DNA of 38,225 nucleotides from Halomicronema sp. CCY15110 (lineage in GTDB: Bacteria; Cyanobacteriota; Cyanobacteriia; Phormidesmidales; Phormidesmidaceae), in contig NZ_JACSWC010000418.1 in NCBI RefSeq assembly GCF_016888165.1, positions 1 through 38,225 on the forward strand. Direction: 5' to 3'. Shown here piece after piece: positions 7,751 through 18,967 of this stretch. Numbering within the stretch: the stretch's first letter is position 1; each line of letters opens with the position of its first letter. The notes beneath the pieces were generated by a model. It was not told where the DNA came from. It saw only the letters and a program-made list of their open reading frames with translations, and made no database searches. The position numbers were made by a program, and so were the translations under genes.

Positions 7751-9136
7751 ATGACAGCACAAGTTCTAAAGCAAGACTACAAAGTTGCCGATATTACCCT
7801 GGCTGATTGGGGTCGCAAAGAAATCGCGATCGCCGAGAGCGAAATGCCTGCCCTGATCAAAATTCGGGAAAAGTACCGGGCCAGCCAACCCCTCGCTGGG
7901 GCCAAAATCATTGGCTGTATCCACATGACCATCCAAACGGCGGTGTTGATTGAGACTCTGCAAACCTTGGGAGCTGAGGTGCGCTGGTCTTCCTGCAATA
8001 TCTTTTCCACGCAGGATCACGCCGCCGCCGCGATCGCCGCTGCGGGTACTCCCGTCTTCGCCTGGAAAGGGGAAACTGAAGAAGAGTACATGTGGTGCAT
8101 TGAGCAGACCTGCCGCACCCCTGAGGGCGACCTATGGGCGGCCAACATGATCTTGGATGACGGCGGCGACCTGACCGGGCACATCCACGAAAAGTATCCC
8201 CACATGCTGGACAGCATTCACGGCGTGACAGAAGAAACCACCACGGGCGTTCACCGCCTGTTGGAAATGCTGGAGCATGGCGAACTGAAAGTTCCCGCCA
8301 TCAACGTTAACGACTCCATCACTAAGGCCAAAAACGACAACAAATACGGTTGCCGCCATAGCTTGAACGACGCGATCAAGCGCGCTACCGACCACCTGAT
8401 GGCAGGCAAAAAAGCTCTGGTCATCGGCTACGGCGACGTGGGCAAAGGCTCCGCTGCTTCCCTGCGTCAAGAAGGCATGATCGTAAAGGTCGCTGAATGT
8501 GATCCCATCTGCGCCATGCAAGCTTGCATGGACGGCTATGAAGTCGTCTCGCCTTACATCGGCGGGCAAAATGACGGCACCGAAAGCTGCATTGACCGTT
8601 CCCTGTTAGGCAATACTGACCTGTTGGTCACCGCCACGGGCAACGTCAACGTTTGCGATGCGGCGATGCTGGCAGCACTAAAGCGCGGCGCGGTAGTATG
8701 CAACATCGGCCACTTTGACAACGAAATCGACACCGCTTACATGCGTCAAAACTGGCGCTGGTCAGAGGTGAAGCCCCAGGTGCATCAGGTCTACCGCAGT
8801 GACGATCAGAATGACTTTTTGCTGCTGCTGGCCGAAGGTCGCTTGGTGAACCTGGGTAACGCCACCGGGCACCCCTCCCGCATTATGGACGGTTCCTTTG
8901 CCAACCAAGTGTTAGCGCAGATGCACTTGTTTGAACGTCAGTTTGCCGACAAGCCGCCCGAGGAAAAAGCCGCGTTGATTACCGTCGAAGTGCTGCCGAA
9001 GCACTTGGATGAGGAAGTTGCTCGCTACATGGTGGAAGGCTTTGGCGGTGTCGTTACTCAGCTCACTGAAAAGCAGGCTAAGTACATCAACGTGCCTTTG
9101 CAGGGGCCGTTCAAGGCTGAAAGCTACAAATACTAG
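7751..9136 (+). CDS. ahcY: S-adenosylhomocysteine hydrolase
   Basis: The 461-residue enzyme splits S-adenosylhomocysteine into adenosine and homocysteine, removing the inhibitor left by methyltransferases. Visible motifs are [35 protein letters not shown] (catalytic Lys/Asp region), the NAD-binding [16 protein letters not shown] and the C-terminal FKAESYKY. The protein has the long form, with the insert around [18 protein letters not shown] that is usual in proteobacteria. It starts at an ATG with aaagga just upstream and is coupled to metK. Its product homocysteine and the SAM from metK belong to one cycle. A HIP1-based hairpin terminator follows. Confidence 0.97.
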
Positions 9137-9146
9137 ACCTTAGCAG

Positions 9147-9180
9147 GGGCGATCGCGGTTGTGCCGCGATCGCCCTTTCA
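9147..9180 (+). terminator. Terminator after ahcY built from two HIP1 octamers
   Basis: The arms 9147-9158 (gggcgatcgcgg) and 9164-9175 (ccgcgatcgccc) pair perfectly over 12 bases around a 5-base loop and are followed by ttt. Each arm contains a full HIP1 palindrome. It ends the metK-ahcY operon. Confidence 0.7.
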
Positions 9181-9208
9181 ACAACTGGTCTAGAAACCAA
9201 CTCCGCAC

Positions 9209-9270
9209 AGGGGCGGGTTTGGCCTTACACGATCTGGTTGTTCAATCAGCGTTCGGCCAAGCCCGCCCCT
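9209..9270. repeat. Long inverted repeat between convergent genes
   Basis: The arms 9209-9224 (aggggcgggtttggcc) and 9255-9270 (ggccaagcccgcccct) pair over 16 bases with one G-U wobble, around a 30-base loop. It lies between ahcY and the convergent small gene at 9299. A bidirectional terminator is the simplest reading, although no clear T-run follows. Confidence 0.6.
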
Positions 9271-9298
9271 CGTTCATCCGGTTCAGGACTATGTCACA

Positions 9299-9517
9299 TT
9301 AATAGCTCAGTTTCAGCGCACTCACGGGGACATCCTCCCATGACTGCACTTGGCGGATTTGGGCCACCCAACCTGCCGCTGTTTGTTCCTCACTCAGATT
9401 TGCCTTAAAAGAAGCGTGGCAAGCTTGAGCCTGCTGCTCGTCAATGCAGGCAATGCAAGAATAAACGATACCGCAGGGGTCAATCTGCTCGTTGACCCAG
9501 ATGATTTGGTCTGCCAT
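9299..9517 (-). CDS. Small conserved cyanobacterial protein
   Basis: This encodes 72 residues: MADQIIWVNEQIDPCGIVYS, then a CIACID segment, a segment ACHASFKANLSEEQTAAGW and the C-terminal VQSWEDVPVSALKLSY. I recall a family of short cyanobacterial proteins with this layout (IWVNEQ...W.DVP..ALKLS), sometimes labelled glycogen debranching protein in databases without good basis. There are four cysteines and no signal peptide or membrane helix. Its function is unknown. It converges on ahcY and is transcribed away from its own 136-base upstream spacer. Confidence 0.75.
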   Translation of the reverse strand: MADQIIWVNEQIDPCGIVYSCIACIDEQQAQACHASFKANLSEEQTAAGWVAQIRQVQSWEDVPVSALKLSY

Positions 9518-9653
9518 GGCAATTGATGTTGATTACTCTCACACAATCCTCTCACATCGCTCGTGAGGGTTAGGCATGACGACTGATACGGGACTGCCTG
9601 AGCACAGCCTAATGGGAATGACGCCACGGGCTCGCTGCGCGGGGCAGACCAGC

Positions 9654-11411
9654 CTAAGCCGATATGGCTTCAGAGGCATCATTGGCAGTCAAAGTTGACA
9701 CCAGTTGCTTCACTTCCGCGATCGCCTGTAGCTGATAATCGCTGGCCTCTTGAAACTTGGACAGCGACTCTGACATTTCGTCTAACTTTTGTCGCATGCC
9801 GTCGTGCTTTTCTTGCAGCGGTGCCAACATCTCTGACAAGATCTGAATCCGACCCTCCATGGCACCCAGCTCACTATGCTTTTCTCGCAATTGCCGATCC
9901 TGGCCTTGCAAATCTTCACGCCCTGCCGCCAACTCAGCCGACTTTTCCTCAACTTCTTTTTTCATGGTGTCGAGGCGAGCCTGCATTTCTTTGATCTCAG
10001 CCTCACATTGCTGCAAGTCATCCGAAGTTTGCTGACGTTGGGTGTCAATTTGCTTCAAAATCGGCTCTAAATCCACCACATTGACCGGCGCTTCTTCAGC
10101 TGCTAGGCCCTGGCGGCGGCGCAATACGGCCTGGTGTTGACTGAGAACTTCTTCCCGCTCTAGCAAATTGCGTCGTTGCCCCACCAAGGTCTCATTGAGC
10201 ATTTGATACCGATCTTGCTCTTCTGCCAGTTCAGTCTCTAGCTGCATGCGATCAAACTCGCTCGCTTGTTCGATCCGTTGCTTCAGCTCATCGATCTCAT
10301 CTTGTTCCAGCTTCAGCTCTTCTTCCTGATCATTCACAAACCGAGAGACTTTGCCCAAGTCTTTTTCCAAATCGGTGACGACCTTTTGCAACTCGTCAAG
10401 CGGCAAAGCATCTAAAGCCGCAACGTCAACCTTATCGCTCAAACGCACTTTATCAGAGGTATTCAGCAGCTCGTAAATCTGCTGATACAAGTTGCTTTGC
10501 GACTGCAACTGCTGAGACAACGTTTGCACATAGGTTTGCTTACTAGCCAGCGTTTGCTGCTGCACTTTGACGTCGATTTTGCGGCTATTCAAAGCGGTTT
10601 CGGCCTCGTGCCAGCCTTGCCAATTTCCAGTCAAGGTTTCCACTTCTTGCTGGAGCTGACTGCGTCTTTCCTCAAGCTGCTGTTGCTGTGTTTCCAGCGA
10701 CTGCTGGCGCTCCGTCAGGAAAGCTTGCTGCTGGTTGACGAGATCGTAAGCCAGGTTGAGCTGCTCACGGAGCCCCTCCGTGGGCGTAACCGCATTCGTG
10801 AGGCGTTCTAGGGCTTCGTGTAGTTGATGGCTTTGGGCTTCGTCTAAGCCCGCATTTTGCGACGCATCGTCTTGACGTTCTTCAAAGCGCCTGATCTCAC
10901 CATTCAGATGATCCCAAGCTCCTTGCATTTCTTGGTGCTTGCGATCGAGTTCTTCTTTTAGCTGATCAAGCTCTTGCTGAGATGCTTGAATCTCCTGTCG
11001 TTGCGCTTCGAGCTTTTCTAAATCGGCTTCCGCTTCTTCGACCTGCTCCTGACGGGTTTCGAGTTCCAACTCGCGACGGTTTAATTCCTGACTTTGAAAG
11101 GTGAGCGACTGCTTCCACTGCTCAATTTCTTCTTCCTGAGATTTGGATTTCTTGCTTTGGTTGGAAAAGTTTTGCAAGATGCCCACCAACGGGCGACCAG
11201 CGTCATAGTGCCGAGTGATTTGGCGGTTGTTGCTCAGCTCCACCATGATTAAGGCTCCGGCGTTGTAGCTAGCGTCGTCGGGAGCCGCGATGGTTTCATC
11301 ACCGGGTACGCCTGTCCAGGTATCCCCCCGCTGACAAGCCAGCAGCTTAAAGTCCGCCTTACCACTGCCGATAAATCCAGTCTTTCTTTGAACCTCAGCC
11401 AGATAAAGCAC
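9654..11411 (-). CDS. hmpF: Pilus motility protein HmpF
   Basis: This is a 585-residue, mostly coiled-coil protein. The N-terminal ~75 residues (MLYLAEVQRKTGFIGSGKAD, LLACQRGDTWTGVPGDE, GALIMVELSNNRQI) match the conserved head of HmpF, and EEEIEQWKQSLTFQSQELNR opens the long coiled coil, which runs to about residue 570. HmpF is required for type IV pilus assembly or activity and gliding of hormogonia in Nostoc and has relatives in other motile cyanobacteria. The start is GTG at 11411, with agagga eight bases upstream. No other pilus or chemotaxis genes lie nearby. Its presence is my main reason for suggesting a motile, probably filamentous, organism. Confidence 0.88.
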   Translation of the reverse strand: MLYLAEVQRKTGFIGSGKADFKLLACQRGDTWTGVPGDETIAAPDDASYNAGALIMVELSNNRQITRHYDAGRPLVGILQNFSNQSKKSKSQEEEIEQWKQSLTFQSQELNRRELELETRQEQVEEAEADLEKLEAQRQEIQASQQELDQLKEELDRKHQEMQGAWDHLNGEIRRFEERQDDASQNAGLDEAQSHQLHEALERLTNAVTPTEGLREQLNLAYDLVNQQQAFLTERQQSLETQQQQLEERRSQLQQEVETLTGNWQGWHEAETALNSRKIDVKVQQQTLASKQTYVQTLSQQLQSQSNLYQQIYELLNTSDKVRLSDKVDVAALDALPLDELQKVVTDLEKDLGKVSRFVNDQEEELKLEQDEIDELKQRIEQASEFDRMQLETELAEEQDRYQMLNETLVGQRRNLLEREEVLSQHQAVLRRRQGLAAEEAPVNVVDLEPILKQIDTQRQQTSDDLQQCEAEIKEMQARLDTMKKEVEEKSAELAAGREDLQGQDRQLREKHSELGAMEGRIQILSEMLAPLQEKHDGMRQKLDEMSESLSKFQEASDYQLQAIAEVKQLVSTLTANDASEAISA

Positions 11412-11840: not shown

Positions 11841-12269
11841 CTAGGACTCTGACGAAAAGGGGATTTCCTCTGCATGGCCCCAAAAGGCTTCTAGGTCGTA
11901 ATAGTCCCGTTCGTCAGGCATGAAAATATGCACAATGACTTCGCCATAGTCCTGCAAAATCCAACTACCATCTCCTTGACCTTCGGTACGCAGCGGTTGG
12001 CGCTCAAAATCGGCGGCGGCAGTGTCGTGAATGCTGCGGGCGATCGCTCTGACCTGAGTAGAAGAAAAACCGGTAACCACAACAAAGTAGTCAGCGAGAA
12101 ACGACACCCCGTCGACCTTCAGAATCCGAATATCTGCCCCCTTACGTTCATCGGCTGCCGCTGCTAGGGCCAAGGCAAAATTGCGGGTCTCAACATCAAT
12201 CACTGGGGTATCAGCGTCCGATGGGGTCGACGTTTGAAAGGGAGTGACAGTATTTTTGACATCTGACAT
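11841..12269 (-). CDS. rsfS: Ribosome silencing factor RsfS
   Basis: The 142-residue protein carries the full RsfS (DUF143, Iojap-related) domain from about residue 28: ERKGADIRILKVDGVSFLAD, YFVVVTGFSSTQVRAIA, EGQGDGSWILQDYGEVIVHI and DERDYYDLEAFWGHAE. RsfS binds ribosomal protein uL14 on the large subunit and blocks subunit joining when nutrients are scarce. The N-terminal 27 residues are variable, as usual. It follows yqeK on the same strand with 77 bases between; the same order is common in other bacteria. Confidence 0.95.
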   Translation of the reverse strand: MSDVKNTVTPFQTSTPSDADTPVIDVETRNFALALAAAADERKGADIRILKVDGVSFLADYFVVVTGFSSTQVRAIARSIHDTAAADFERQPLRTEGQGDGSWILQDYGEVIVHIFMPDERDYYDLEAFWGHAEEIPFSSES

Positions 12270-12346: not shown

Positions 12347-12967
12347 TTATGCCGCTACTGACTGGTTTGCTTGACGGCAAATCGTCAACAGCCTGTTATG
12401 GGTCAGGATAGTGCGTGGGTGAACCGGACGCCTATGATTCAACAAATGTTGTAAGGAAAAAACACAGGTTGCATAAGTAGCTCTCCATAAATCACCATAG
12501 CTTAGCTGGCGAAGATGGTGTAGCTGAGGGGTGTCGCCCCGACCAGGCTCCAGCGCATCCGCCAAATACACAACCGCACCGATCGCGTCCATATCAGGAC
12601 TGCCCAGGGTATGGGCCGCGATCTCCCGCAACACCGTTTCATCGGTAATGCCAAACCGTTCACGAGCCACCACTGCTCCGACGGGCGCATGGAGCAAGTG
12701 GGGCGCTTGTTGCTCGGCGGGGTCAAGTTCCCATCCTTCGGCGGCGGCGACGGCTAATAATTTGTCAGGGGCAAAGCACTTGGCTAAATCGTGCATGAGC
12801 GCGGCCTGCTGGGCCTGCACTACCGATAGCTGATGGGCCTGGGCCAGAGCGATCGCCATTTGCTCCACCCGCAGAATGTGCTGTAGCCGCACCTCTGGAA
12901 CCGCCGTCTGCAACCAAGACAACACCTCTTGGCGAAGAGCGGATGACATGAAACCAGCTTCCCTCAT
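12347..12967 (-). CDS. yqeK: HD-domain Ap4A hydrolase YqeK
   Basis: This encodes up to 206 residues. The HD phosphohydrolase pattern is complete: RLQHILRVEQMAIALA (first His), AALMHDLAKCF (HD pair), APHLLHAPVGAVVARERFGI, REIAAHTLGSPDMDAIGAVV and YLADALEPGRG. YqeK-type enzymes hydrolyse diadenosine tetraphosphate symmetrically using a metal pair. Two starts are possible: the ATG at 12967 with a G-rich site upstream, or MSSALRQ at 12949. Family members usually begin close to the second. It is paired with rsfS. The last ~35 residues after YATCVFSLQHLLNHRR are typical. Confidence 0.93.
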   Translation of the reverse strand: MREAGFMSSALRQEVLSWLQTAVPEVRLQHILRVEQMAIALAQAHQLSVVQAQQAALMHDLAKCFAPDKLLAVAAAEGWELDPAEQQAPHLLHAPVGAVVARERFGITDETVLREIAAHTLGSPDMDAIGAVVYLADALEPGRGDTPQLHHLRQLSYGDLWRATYATCVFSLQHLLNHRRPVHPRTILTHNRLLTICRQANQSVAA

Positions 12968-13551: not shown

Positions 13552-15825
13552 ATGAATTCATTTACCCCTGGCATTATCATTGCGCTCCTAATCGTCTTGC
13601 TCGTGGGCATTCTAATCGGCTATTCCCTCGTGCAAAAGCGATTTCGCCAGCAGGCCGAAACCCTTAAAGTGAGTCAGCGGCGACTAACCGAAATTGAGCA
13701 GTCCCATGAATTACGGTTGCGAGAAGCCACTGACCAGCTACGCCACGATTATGAAACTCAACTTGCCAGCACTATCGAGCATTACCAAGATCAGCTGTCG
13801 CAAAAAACTGTTGAAATGGAGCAGACTTACGAAACTCGCTTTCGAGTCATGCAGCAAGGCCGCGCCGCCGCCACACAGCCCATGGCCAGCAACCATCGTG
13901 GGGTCGCAGTGATGCCCACGTCCGGCGAAGCCGGCGAGACCGCCAATGTCGAAAGCTCGGCCAAAGCCTCTCAGCGTGAGTTGATGCATCTTAAGCGGCA
14001 GTATGAAATCCGCCTGAATGAAGCAGCCCAAAAGTTGCAAAAGTCCTACGAAAAGCAGCTGGCCGAGCACGTCAACAGTGCCAAAGCCGAGATGCAAGCT
14101 GAGTTTGATCAACAATTGACGACGAAGTATCAAGAGTTTGAACAAGAGTTTGCAGGGCGCGAGGCCGAACTACAAGATCAACTAGCCGCGCTGCGAGTCG
14201 AGGCTGAGGCTGCCACCTCAACTCTGGCCAGTGAAGTTGTTCCCCCAACCCCGAGTGAAATTATGGGCACTGGCGACGAAACGACCGTGGCATTAGCGTC
14301 CCCGGGGGCAGCGGCGGCAGAAATGTCCGACTTTGCAACCATGCGATACACCCAACGGGAAGTCGACCAACAGGTCGCGGTGGCAACTCAACAAGCCCAA
14401 GCCGATTTTGACCAACGCCTTGCCGAACAGTTGGCGGCCCAGCAAGTGCAGTTAGATCGTCGATTAGAAGAATTGGAAGCCGAATATGCTCAAAGGCTAT
14501 CAGCCCTAGAACAAACCGCCCAATCAGAGACAGCGGATCCAATGGATGCGTTTCTGAGTGATGATGGGTACGAAGATTTAGTTTCCGACTTAGGCCCTGA
14601 TACCCCCGCCCCCGCCCCTGTACCTGGGGCAACGGAGACAGTTGCGGATCTCTCATCAGGGAGTACCTCAACCGAAGAGTTAGAGATGGATGAGACGTTA
14701 GCCGCAGACGAAGTTGACGAATCACTCGCAAATGCGGCACCGGCTCCAGCGACTATCACTGATGAAGTTGCCGTCACTGATGCTGCCACCGAACTCCTTG
14801 AAGATGATGATTTAGCGGCAACCGTGGACATCGCAAATGAGATCGATGCCCCTTTCGCGGACGCGACGCCGGCTGACGATAATTTATTTGCTGATGATGA
14901 CTTGCCAGTCGATGGTGATGCAGAAACATTCGAGGAACCTCCTGAATCATCTTTAACTGAAGAAACGGCTCAAGCGATGCCGTCAGAATCAGCGGCTGAC
15001 CTGTTTAACGAATCAGACGATTTGACTGATGATTTAGAAACCCCAGCGGCGGAAAATACCGACACTGACGCGGCATCTTTAGACTTTGAGGATGACCTGT
15101 TCGGTGAGACGAACGAGTTGGCCGCTGACCTGGAAGCTACCGCAAATTCAGACATTACCGATGATTTGCTGGATGAAGCAGATGATTTGACTGCTGACTT
15201 AGCAACCACCATCGATGGAGAATCGGAAACATCTCCTGAGTTAGAAGACGATCTATTCGGCGAAACGGATGATTTGACCGCTGACCTGGAAACCCCAGCG
15301 GCGGAAAATACCGACACTGACGCGGCATCTTTGGACTTTGAGGATGACCTGTTTGGTGAGGCGAACGATTTGACCGCTGACTTGGAAGCCGCTGCCGATG
15401 GAGAATCGGAGCCTGCTTCAGAGTTAGAAGATGACCTATTCGGCGAAGCGGATGATTTGACCGCTGACTTGGAAAGCACAGCGGATGATAGCAATCGCAA
15501 TGAGGTCGCTTCCCTAGAATTAGATGAAGCTCTGTTCGGTGAAACCCCTGGTTTGACTGCTGACTTAGAGACCTCTGGCGATGAGGGCGGCAGTGCAGAC
15601 GCAGCATCTTCGGGGCTGGTGGACGATCTGTTTGGAGAGGACGATTTATTTGGTGACGCCTCGCCAAATCAGGATGATTCATCAATAGAGGATGTCAATG
15701 CGCTCTTTGGCGATGATGACTTTTTGGGCGAGTCTACTGAAGGGGACTCTGAAAATTCAGAGGATGATGATGACGATGATGATTTTGGGCCACTGGACCT
15801 GAGTGATATCAGTCAGTTAACTTAA
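13552..15825 (+). CDS. Membrane-anchored coiled-coil protein with acidic LFGE repeats
   Basis: This encodes 757 residues with a gaggg ribosome site before the ATG. An N-terminal helix (residues 7-28, IIIALLIVLLVGILIGYSLV) anchors it. Two coiled-coil stretches follow, at about 35-105 and 140-230, and another at 265-325. From about residue 330 the protein is extremely acidic. Residues ~480-705 hold repeated units of the form DDLFGE-x-DDLTADLE separated by 15-20 Ser/Thr/Asp-rich residues. The tail has a run of seven Asp and ends PLDLSDISQLT. Two 72-base segments (15037-15108 and 15289-15360) differ at only two positions, showing recent internal duplication. I do not recognise a family. It may be a scaffold or an envelope-associated protein; the function is unknown. 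Confidence 0.8.
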   Translation: MNSFTPGIIIALLIVLLVGILIGYSLVQKRFRQQAETLKVSQRRLTEIEQSHELRLREATDQLRHDYETQLASTIEHYQDQLSQKTVEMEQTYETRFRVMQQGRAAATQPMASNHRGVAVMPTSGEAGETANVESSAKASQRELMHLKRQYEIRLNEAAQKLQKSYEKQLAEHVNSAKAEMQAEFDQQLTTKYQEFEQEFAGREAELQDQLAALRVEAEAATSTLASEVVPPTPSEIMGTGDETTVALASPGAAAAEMSDFATMRYTQREVDQQVAVATQQAQADFDQRLAEQLAAQQVQLDRRLEELEAEYAQRLSALEQTAQSETADPMDAFLSDDGYEDLVSDLGPDTPAPAPVPGATETVADLSSGSTSTEELEMDETLAADEVDESLANAAPAPATITDEVAVTDAATELLEDDDLAATVDIANEIDAPFADATPADDNLFADDDLPVDGDAETFEEPPESSLTEETAQAMPSESAADLFNESDDLTDDLETPAAENTDTDAASLDFEDDLFGETNELAADLEATANSDITDDLLDEADDLTADLATTIDGESETSPELEDDLFGETDDLTADLETPAAENTDTDAASLDFEDDLFGEANDLTADLEAAADGESEPASELEDDLFGEADDLTADLESTADDSNRNEVASLELDEALFGETPGLTADLETSGDEGGSADAASSGLVDDLFGEDDLFGDASPNQDDSSIEDVNALFGDDDFLGESTEGDSENSEDDDDDDDFGPLDLSDISQLT
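15037..15360 (+). repeat. Intragenic 72-bp near-identical direct repeats
   Basis: The segments 15037-15108 and 15289-15360 match at 70 of 72 bases; both differences are third-position and silent. They lie 252 bases (84 codons) apart within the acidic repeat region of the gene at 13552. Confidence 0.85.
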
Positions 15826-16014: not shown

Positions 16015-16434
16015 ATGACTCGCGCAATTATGGAAACCGACAAAGGCACGATTACGCTGGAGATGTTTGATGCTGACGCTCCTGGCACCGTGCAGAACTT
16101 TGTTGACCTAGCGAATAATGGCTTCTACGACGGCCTCAAATTCCACCGGGTAATTCCTAACTTCATGGTTCAAGGCGGTTGCCCCAAGGGCAATGGTACT
16201 GGCGGCCCTGGCTACACCATTAAGTGTGAAATCAACTCCAACAAGCATGAGGCGGGGAGCCTGGCGATGGCGCACCGTGGCCCCGATACGGGGGGCAGTC
16301 AGTTCTTTATCTGCCATAGTCCGCAGCCACATCTGGACGGGGTACATACGGTATTTGGCAAAACCGAGGATATGAACGTGGTGAATGCGATTCGCCAGGG
16401 CGATAAGATCCTCTCTATCAAAATTGAAGCCTGA
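16015..16434 (+). CDS. Peptidylprolyl isomerase, cyclophilin type
   Basis: The 139-residue single-domain cyclophilin begins at an ATG with ttaggaga before it. Core motifs are [56 protein letters not shown] and [10 protein letters not shown], covering the catalytic arginine and the hydrophobic pocket. There is no signal peptide, so it is cytoplasmic, like PpiB. It catalyses cis/trans isomerisation of prolyl peptide bonds in folding proteins. The gene stands alone and is followed by a hairpin terminator shared with the convergent padR gene. Confidence 0.95.
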
Positions 16435-17539: not shown

Positions 17540-18967
17540 CTAATTGGGGCGCTGATCACGACGCGGGGGATCGCTGGAACTTGGCTCTGGAAAGGCTTCA
17601 CGGGGTAAAGCATCCGTGCGCAGCAGGACCTCACCATCGCGGACGGCAAATAATTCGACTTGTAACGGACCCACAGTAGGAATTGGCGCTGAAGTGATCG
17701 CCTGAATGTCGATCGGCGTGTCCAGACTCCGCATTTCTTGTAAAAAGGCAATCAGGGCTTCTGTCCGTCCCTCGGCGACCTGTAGGGTATCGCCAACAAG
17801 ACCATCTTGACGGGCGCGAAACTGGAGCGATGCAATCAGTAGGTTCAGCTTTTCGACTAACTCTTGATTGGTCAAATTGCGGGGATCAACGCTCACCATG
17901 GCCAGCCGCTGACCGGGTTCGTAGATTAGTTCATTCACCGCCGCATCGATAAAAACCTGGACACAAGGGTCGCCATCGGCCACGACACAGGGCTCACCGA
18001 TAATGTAGTTGGCCGACGAGAGCACTCGGACAACATAGGATTGCCCATCGCTAATGCGCTGCACTAGGCGATCAACGTCTTGGGATGGGATTGACAGGAC
18101 CGGATCGTCACGATCAATGCCGGGAGCAATTTCTTCAATGGCAGAGCGATTTGCCTGCCGCAGCAGTTGATCAACGGCGCGGCGGGCTTCCACGGGGTCA
18201 TTGACCCGCAACAGCACCGAGACCAGAGGCTCGTTGCGATCAACTGCCACGCTGCCGCGAAAGAGACCCTGATATTGTCGCTCCAACAGCGCGACATTCT
18301 CTTGCAGTTCGGTCTGCTGGCGTTGCAGTTCACGGAGCCGGGATTCGCGCTGGGCTATTGCGCGATCGCGCTCGGCAATGAGGCGATCGCGCTCAGCAAT
18401 GCGTTCTTGCACCGTGGCCTGCTGCTGCAATAAGTCGGCCCGCTCCGTCTGTAACCGCTGAATTTCATCTTGGAGCTGGGCCGATTGTTGAGAAACCTGC
18501 CCCAACTCAGACTGGAGGGATGATAACCGCGATCGCGACTGCTGTAACTCGCTTTGGGTCGTGCGCTGCTGTTCTACCGCCTGCTGCAAAGACTGGTTAA
18601 TGTCGGCGAGTTCCTGCTGGGCCGCCGTTTGTTCTTCGCGAGCATCGGTCAGGGCTGATTCAATATCAGTCTTGGCAATTTGTGCTTCATCCAGCTCGGC
18701 CTCAGCCTGCAAGAGGTCATCTTGAATGCGCTCTAGCTCAAACACCCCTGTGCGCAGCTGCTGACTGATGCCAAAGAGCAACGCCAGAGTAGACGCAGAA
18801 ATCACACCGCCCGTCAAAATGCTGACCACAGTAGCCGTCTGACGGGGGCGGAGGTTAAACAGGCTCAGCCGCGCCTTACCGACTCGCATGCCAATGCGAT
18901 CGCCGAGTGTGGCAATTACACCGCCGAGAATTAAGACTGCCAATACTAGAACGTAACCTGTGGCCAT
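17540..18967 (-). CDS. DUF3084 domain-containing coiled-coil membrane protein
   Basis: This encodes 475 residues. Two hydrophobic helices lie at about 3-22 (GYVLVLAVLILGGVIATLGD) and 46-68 (VVSILTGGVISASTLALLFG). Between them is the conserved basic loop RIGMRVGKARLSLFNLRPRQ. A coiled coil occupies about 75-235. The DUF3084 domain runs from about 240 to 450 (NEPLVSVLLRVNDPVEARRA, YVVRVLSSANYIIGEPCVV, RLAMVSVDPRNLTNQELVEK). The C-terminal 25 residues are Pro/Arg/Asp rich. The family is widespread in cyanobacteria and has no established role. The fold suggests an inner-membrane protein with a long coiled stalk. Confidence 0.9.
   Translation of the reverse strand: MATGYVLVLAVLILGGVIATLGDRIGMRVGKARLSLFNLRPRQTATVVSILTGGVISASTLALLFGISQQLRTGVFELERIQDDLLQAEAELDEAQIAKTDIESALTDAREEQTAAQQELADINQSLQQAVEQQRTTQSELQQSRSRLSSLQSELGQVSQQSAQLQDEIQRLQTERADLLQQQATVQERIAERDRLIAERDRAIAQRESRLRELQRQQTELQENVALLERQYQGLFRGSVAVDRNEPLVSVLLRVNDPVEARRAVDQLLRQANRSAIEEIAPGIDRDDPVLSIPSQDVDRLVQRISDGQSYVVRVLSSANYIIGEPCVVADGDPCVQVFIDAAVNELIYEPGQRLAMVSVDPRNLTNQELVEKLNLLIASLQFRARQDGLVGDTLQVAEGRTEALIAFLQEMRSLDTPIDIQAITSAPIPTVGPLQVELFAVRDGEVLLRTDALPREAFPEPSSSDPPRRDQRPN

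Follow-up and report, generated by a model that had tools for sequence, protein, structure and literature searches.

We describe a membrane-anchored coiled-coil protein with a long acidic tail, encoded in the window (the whole 38,225-nucleotide stretch of Halomicronema sp. CCY15110 DNA that was analysed), whose family, as our sequence comparisons indicate, is defined by both protein ends and whose array of LFGE motifs is lineage-specific and not a family signature. We hypothesize that the protein is a membrane-tethered cytoplasmic coiled-coil scaffold whose tail serves as a multivalent docking arm for putative partners, a proposal to which we would give about an even chance. The protein is apparently undescribed so far; our literature search returned no description of the family or the module among the matches listed, as judged by title and the start of the abstract.

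Gene and protein architecture

Features of the gene (window coordinates, strand):
13552..15825, plus: membrane-anchored coiled-coil protein with acidic tail (ORF of 757 aa, ATG start, homologues found)
13570..13632, plus: predicted N-terminal transmembrane helix, residues 7-27 (hydropathy; conserved in the family alignment)
13633..13872, plus: first coiled coil, residues 28-107 (among the best-conserved parts; also in HEAT-type paralogues)
13948..14232, plus: second predicted long helix, residues 133-227 (AlphaFold model)
14245..14295, plus: conserved PTPSEIMGTGDETTVAL linker motif, residues 232-248
14353..14523, plus: third predicted long helix, residues 268-324 (AlphaFold model)
14542..15765, plus: acidic tail, residues 331-738 (charge; pLDDT mostly <50)
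15001..15714, plus: array of LF[GN][DE] and DDLTADLE-type motifs, residues 484-721 (motif counts; three species of 290 genomes)
15037..15108, plus: 72-base near-identical segment, first copy (sequence comparison; inside a 155-nt repeat family)
15289..15360, plus: 72-base near-identical segment, second copy (sequence comparison; inside the same 155-nt repeat family)
15763..15783, plus: seven-Asp run, residues 738-744 (sequence)
15784..15822, plus: C-terminal motif FGPLDLSDISQLT, residues 745-757 (conserved tail end; DISQLT fits D[IL][SEN]xL[ST])

A preliminary description had read an N-terminal helix, coiled coils and a long acidic tail from the letters of this gene, and all three are borne out by the 757-aa ORF, by hydropathy, by charge and by the helices of an AlphaFold model. 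The sole strongly hydrophobic stretch is N-terminal, where the Kyte-Doolittle 19-residue mean peaks at 3.0 (in the segment from residue 8) and exceeds 1.6 solely in segments starting at residues 1-13. Because KRFR follows shortly after this helix, the positive-inside rule suggests that the protein is likely a single-pass membrane anchor with the remainder cytoplasmic. The AlphaFold model, which had an input of four sequences and is poor as a whole (mean pLDDT 52.3, pTM 0.24), places helices at residues 6-107, 133-227 and 268-324, whose block means reach up to 88; tail pLDDT is mostly <50, with low-confidence helices inside the array at 516-555, 597-615 and 626-661. The roughly 430 acidic C-terminal residues are thus probably disordered, as far as a low-confidence model can indicate. 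Residues 331-490 carry a net charge of -48 and residues 491-738 one of -87, and one lysine or arginine occurs in all of 331-738. The poly-Asp tail of the preliminary description is present as the seven-Asp run, although this run does not end the protein; FGPLDLSDISQLT comes after it and is more widely conserved.

No Pfam or NCBIfam family matches the 757-aa protein above cut-off (for NCBIfam, none at E 0.01); below the Pfam cut-off, DUF4407 and DUF4709 alone appear, over predicted coiled-coil stretches, and a HEAT match is absent at E 0.1. Relatives of solved structure were found neither by sequence nor by fold, the fold query being the poor model (pLDDT 52, pTM 0.24), and scans for promoters and terminators did not rise above chance.

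Conserved ends and a variable tail

Among 59 genomes (the present one plus its closest relatives), 34 match in a whole-protein search, mostly via the N-terminus, and a family-profile search matches 57 of 290 genomes of the same class (drawn evenly from a larger group, one genome per species, this genome included), with HEAT-type and coil-only matches counted. Thirty genomes hold a full-length relative, defined as a profile match at E <1e-60 among the loci fetched, and these proteins span 264-826 aa in length. By profile match, all 30 share the N-terminal helix and first coil, and despite the range in length 23 of them end in D[IL][SEN]xL[ST]. The other seven (G004, G005, G012, G242, G252, G261 and G293) lack the end motif or carry an altered form of it, with G004 and G293 as near misses; in G005 (L032 8001-10004) a TAG follows ...DLSDIS three residues early and leaves the motif incomplete. 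An IMGxGDETT-like linker motif is recognisable in 10 of the 30. Between this genome and G001, the nearest relative compared, the last 19 residues are identical (19/19) and the first coil nearly so (73/75), with 57/117 identities in the tail before the repeats and 120/185 in the repeat region.

The relatives of 337-360 aa have little tail, and the array is therefore not needed for the family's basic job. In a tree of 40 N-terminal pieces, the tail-bearing proteins group together (21 rows, support 94/89, not starred) apart from the HEAT types, and the present protein also lies within a starred clade of five rows; a short coiled coil carries limited signal, and 11 of the 37 inner branches are open and 19 starred. 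Long tails are scattered among shorter relatives in this tree (668-757 aa in this genus, 648-817 aa in G016, G023 and G296, 737 aa in G008 and 633 aa in G242) and hence most likely arose more than once, to the extent that the tree can be trusted. With protein ends mostly kept and tails grown in seemingly separate branches, the family offers a natural experiment on whether motif, charge or nothing is selected, and its conserved end motif could serve as a short, testable bait.

Two proteins from other families of the class (L100 6252-7388 and L101 5867-7564) have the same layout, with an acidic tail carrying DSLF or DSLL; they are located elsewhere, and their matches to the profile are weak (E 8e-9 and 2e-7 within a small ORF set).

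Genomic locus and HEAT-type sister proteins

Neighbouring genes (window coordinates, strand):
9654-11411, minus: hmpF, pilus motility taxis protein (NF038350, E 1e-198; ~2 kb from the gene)
11841..12269, minus: rsfS, ribosome silencing factor, conserved neighbour (family match)
12347..12967, minus: yqeK, HD domain (family match; detected in 13/22 loci)
16015..16434, plus: cyclophilin-type peptidyl-prolyl isomerase, downstream neighbour (detected in 13/22 loci)

The position beside rsfS is common, not universal. In a first set of 22 relatives' loci (20 regions minus the paralogue region L054, plus three more, some of them cut by contig ends), rsfS neighbours the gene in every one; eleven of the 33 other genomes that match the whole protein fall outside this set. 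In a second set, rsfS accompanies two of four full-length relatives (L107 and L108) and was not found within the stretch fetched at the other two (L105 and L106, from G261 and G242).

HEAT-type sister proteins of the same cyanobacterial family (such as L051 1255-2181, L052 8647-9510 and L054 4748-5518) share a homologous membrane helix and first coil, a region that hhalign aligns with the present protein at a probability of 99.6 (E 7e-25, 98 columns), and carry C-terminal HEAT repeats and a basic, KLPKNR-like end where this protein has its acidic tail. The repeats are PF13646 in these three and are assigned by similarity in the remaining HEAT-type proteins. A HEAT-type protein fills the rsfS slot in four of the 22 loci (L050-L053), and at L038 both types stand in tandem between rsfS and the cyclophilin gene. 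The HEAT-type paralogues of G000, G001, G005 and G012 (L054, L104, L103 and L102) are found elsewhere, in stretches of 13-14 kb that contain no rsfS, and rsfS is likewise absent from the loci of the HEAT-type protein of G042 (L096) and of those of other families. In two genomes of genus g13, the slot next to rsfS and cyclophilin is occupied by a protein of 116-129 aa with membrane helix and first coil only (L047 8500-8847, L048 8063-8449).

Elsewhere in the window, a DUF3084 protein at 17540-18967 (minus strand) has weak coiled-coil model matches and a 21-base tandem repeat at 18345-18401, and a 66-base unit is perfectly duplicated head to tail at 2177-2310, directly 5' of the start of an ORF whose translation resembles, by eye, the N-terminus of an IS transposase.

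The repeat array and its recent duplication

The tail holds eight LFG[DE] motifs (10,000 shuffles: mean 0.03, maximum 2) and five DL[TA]xD motifs (mean 0.18, maximum 3), and its self-alignment peak of 0.236 exceeds the maximum of 0.190 in 500 shuffles. The LFGE/DDLTADLE repeats first noted by eye are hence real, and random acidic low complexity is ruled out for this tail by the shuffle tests, although the repeats are not general but confined to three species of one genus. Tandem Repeats Finder reports a 183-base period in 2.1 copies, and a direct-repeat search identifies a 155-nt family whose copies are at 83 and 63%.

Two 72-base segments had been described as 70/72 identical, and they are, at 15037-15108 and 15289-15360 with a spacing of 252; both differences are synonymous. 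Over these 24 codons the pair has a dS of 0.137, which rests on 16 synonymous sites, and a dN of 0. Against G001, dS is 0.8-1.3 in three coiled-coil regions and 0.45 in the first 30 codons. Since the dS of the pair (~0.14) is so far below the 0.8-1.3 between species, the copy event, whether duplication or gene conversion, probably postdates the split of this species from G001, and the recent internal duplication proposed earlier stands.

An 87-residue array query matches three of the 290 genomes at E ≤0.001, all in one genus and always at this gene. The preliminary description had suggested looking for the LFGE-DDL module in other cyanobacterial proteins; none was found outside this gene in the 290 genomes (E 0.001), none elsewhere in its own genome at E 10, and phages gave no match. 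It had also held that homologues lacking repeat conservation would speak against the array, and this is what the wider family presents: among 15 aligned relatives including this one, LFG[DE] counts are 8, 8 and 6, one has a single copy and eleven have 0. Repeat number was compared between species only, with one genome per species. A DNA pattern for D-L-F-G-[DE], which also admits DFFG, has 25 matches in the genome (6 with a reversed control pattern), of which 6 fall in the window gene, 2 in a CheA-type kinase and 17 elsewhere; by eye, these 17 lie in ordinary domains, in short ORFs and, in one case (L117), in a short acidic stretch.

More general hydrophobic motifs follow the same genus. Triplets of the form [DEN][LIF][LIF] are enriched in the tails of this genome (p 0.0017), G001 (p 0.0010) and G005 (p <0.001; 3000 shuffles each) and not in the other long tails of G016, G008 and G023 (p 0.75 to 0.998), so hydrophobic doublet or triplet enrichment across all long tails was not found; the doublet and triplet tests are reliable just for these five relatives and this genome, the tail cut having failed in G018 (a tail of 1 residue) and fallen too early in G002, G003 and G021.

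Candidate functions of the tail

In the docking-arm proposal, the single-pass anchor would hold a coiled-coil rod as the cytoplasmic body, from which the C-terminal 430 residues would extend as a mostly disordered, strongly acidic chain. Its repeated acidic-hydrophobic motifs (DDLFGE, DDLTADLE) would bind one or more putative cytoplasmic partners weakly and in number, the more widely conserved end motif (PLDLSDISQLT) would bind such partners as well, and the partners would collect at the membrane through the arm. Tandem duplication would raise the number of modules, and other branches would have grown other motifs.

The architecture, the conservation of the ends and the recent duplication are observed directly, as is a lower rate of amino-acid change in the motif cores. 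In the repeat region compared between this genome and G001, pN is 0.063 or 0.071 in cores and 0.278 or 0.279 in linkers (two values each, as cores were defined on either sequence of the pair), whereas pS is 0.74-0.91 in cores and linkers alike, that is, saturated. With a slightly different definition of cores, 81/91 core residues and 69/139 linker residues are identical. The contrast is much weaker against G005, the third repeat-bearing species (core pN 0.235-0.258, linker pN 0.437-0.451), and the test favours cores, since they serve as anchors for the alignment and their definition comes from one member of the pair. Conserved cores amid diverging linkers in the two closest species compared fit short binding motifs. 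The suggestion in the preliminary description that the Leu-Phe spacing marks binding motifs is therefore plausible for these two species, although the array that carries them is not a property of the family.

The main rival, which we consider rather unlikely yet worth serious weight, is that the tail works as a polyelectrolyte brush or spacer in which length and negative charge alone matter and repeats are the cheapest means of lengthening; such a brush could space the coiled-coil rods, or repel or hold basic proteins or cations near the membrane. Neurofilament-type proteins have acidic tails for which a brush or spacer role has been proposed. Net charge after residue 320 agrees with this (-145 in G000, -131 in G001, -102 in G005, -136 in G016 and -118 in G008), as does the fact that strongly charged long tails of different branches carry different motifs. 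A requirement for charge alone is, however, harder to reconcile with Leu/Phe/Thr cores that are better conserved than linkers between G000 and G001, with an end motif kept in 23 of 30 relatives, and with short-tailed relatives that are barely charged after residue 320 (0 in G012, -7 in G004 and -17 in G018).

An improbable further alternative is near-neutral expansion, by which slippage and unequal recombination would have lengthened a tolerated disordered tail into an array without function. The restriction of the module to three congeneric species out of 290 genomes, the visible recent duplication and the highly variable tail length are all as such a process would leave them; the difference between cores and linkers at saturated synonymous distance argues against it, as does a tail reading frame that is uninterrupted for 441, 375 and 342 codons in the three module-bearing species.

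Acidic linkers of the chemosensory proteins

The CheA-type kinase of the same genome (L134 2755-8241) has Hpt, H-kinase_dim, HATPase, CheW and REC domains, a layout that suggests the pilus (Hmp/Pil) kinase; no NCBIfam pilus-kinase model stands above cut-off among the matches listed. An acidic linker of about 1000 residues runs through this kinase, the adjacent MCP (8472-11252) has a long acidic N-terminal part, and the orthologous CheA kinases of 17 among 19 genomes measure about 1500-2375 aa, those of the remaining two being truncated at contig ends. Both the MCP linker and the kinase linker are acidic like the tail, and the latter contains DLFGD, DDLFGE and DLADLF motifs and is enriched in [DE]LF; with 2 in 1027 residues, compared with 8 in 441, its LFG[DE] density is roughly one ninth that of the tail, and it belongs to a different protein.

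The array and this kinase linker might dock on the same reader through DLF-type motifs, with the neighbouring hmpF reflecting the link. Besides the proximity of hmpF (~2 kb), there is an enrichment of [DE]LF in the CheA linkers of this genome and G001 (8 against 1.3 and 1.2 expected, p <0.0005 each), of G005 (6 against 1.4, p 0.002) and of G016 (4 against 0.9, p 0.02); of the 19 CheA orthologues (two of them cut by contig ends), 12 retain SLADLFEG. A further membrane-anchored coiled-coil protein, Syc2039, is described as binding HmpF in a two-hybrid assay (PMC7002697). However, the CheA linker of G018 shows no excess of [DE]LF (3 against 3.1), G005 has six LFG[DE] in its tail and none in its CheA linker, and hmpF adjacency is seen only in the three sister genomes that bear the LFGE array (this one, G001 and G005) and at no other locus of the first set, several of whose loci end close to rsfS and so limit this count. 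Across 13 genomes, the number of motifs in the tail shows no covariation with the number in the CheA linker (Spearman 0.32, p 0.28), and an LDALL-like motif gives the opposite sign (Spearman -0.59, p 0.03); this comparison left out G002 and G025 (CheA truncated at a contig end) and G007, G019, G024 and G029 (no full-length tail-bearing relative), and the motif count for the CheA of G007, which lacks a recognisable linker end, refers to the whole protein. A pilus chemosensory link through the CheA linkers is thus not supported, the motif counts failing to covary, and we consider it very unlikely.

Comparison with known systems

By layout, the nearest described analogue of the 757-aa protein is Syc2039, like HmpF a cyanobacterial coiled-coil-rich protein, compared here by description alone (PMC7002697). 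Syc2039 has about 280 aa, with a predicted N-terminal membrane helix and coiled coils; it forms filament-like structures, often along the cell envelope, and its loss disturbs cell division (PMC7002697). An acidic repeat tail is not mentioned in the parts of that account consulted here (PMC7002697).

The tail itself, if it is a docking arm, finds its likeness in AP180, epsin and other endocytic adaptors, which likewise place a long disordered region with repeated acidic-hydrophobic motifs at a membrane, an analogy that implies no homology. The motifs of endocytic adaptors are of the DLL/DLF type, and these adaptors are eukaryotic, attach through a folded lipid-binding domain instead of a membrane helix and have clathrin and AP2 as partners. 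The disordered region of AP180 is about 600 residues long (PMC11246429). It is a very distant prospect, and one that we hold to be the least likely of all those raised here, that the expanding DLF array of this membrane-anchored rod is a lineage-specific bacterial counterpart of endocytic docking arms, competing with or feeding the pilus chemosensory kinase for a shared reader domain; if true, repeat number would tune where the motility machinery gathers.
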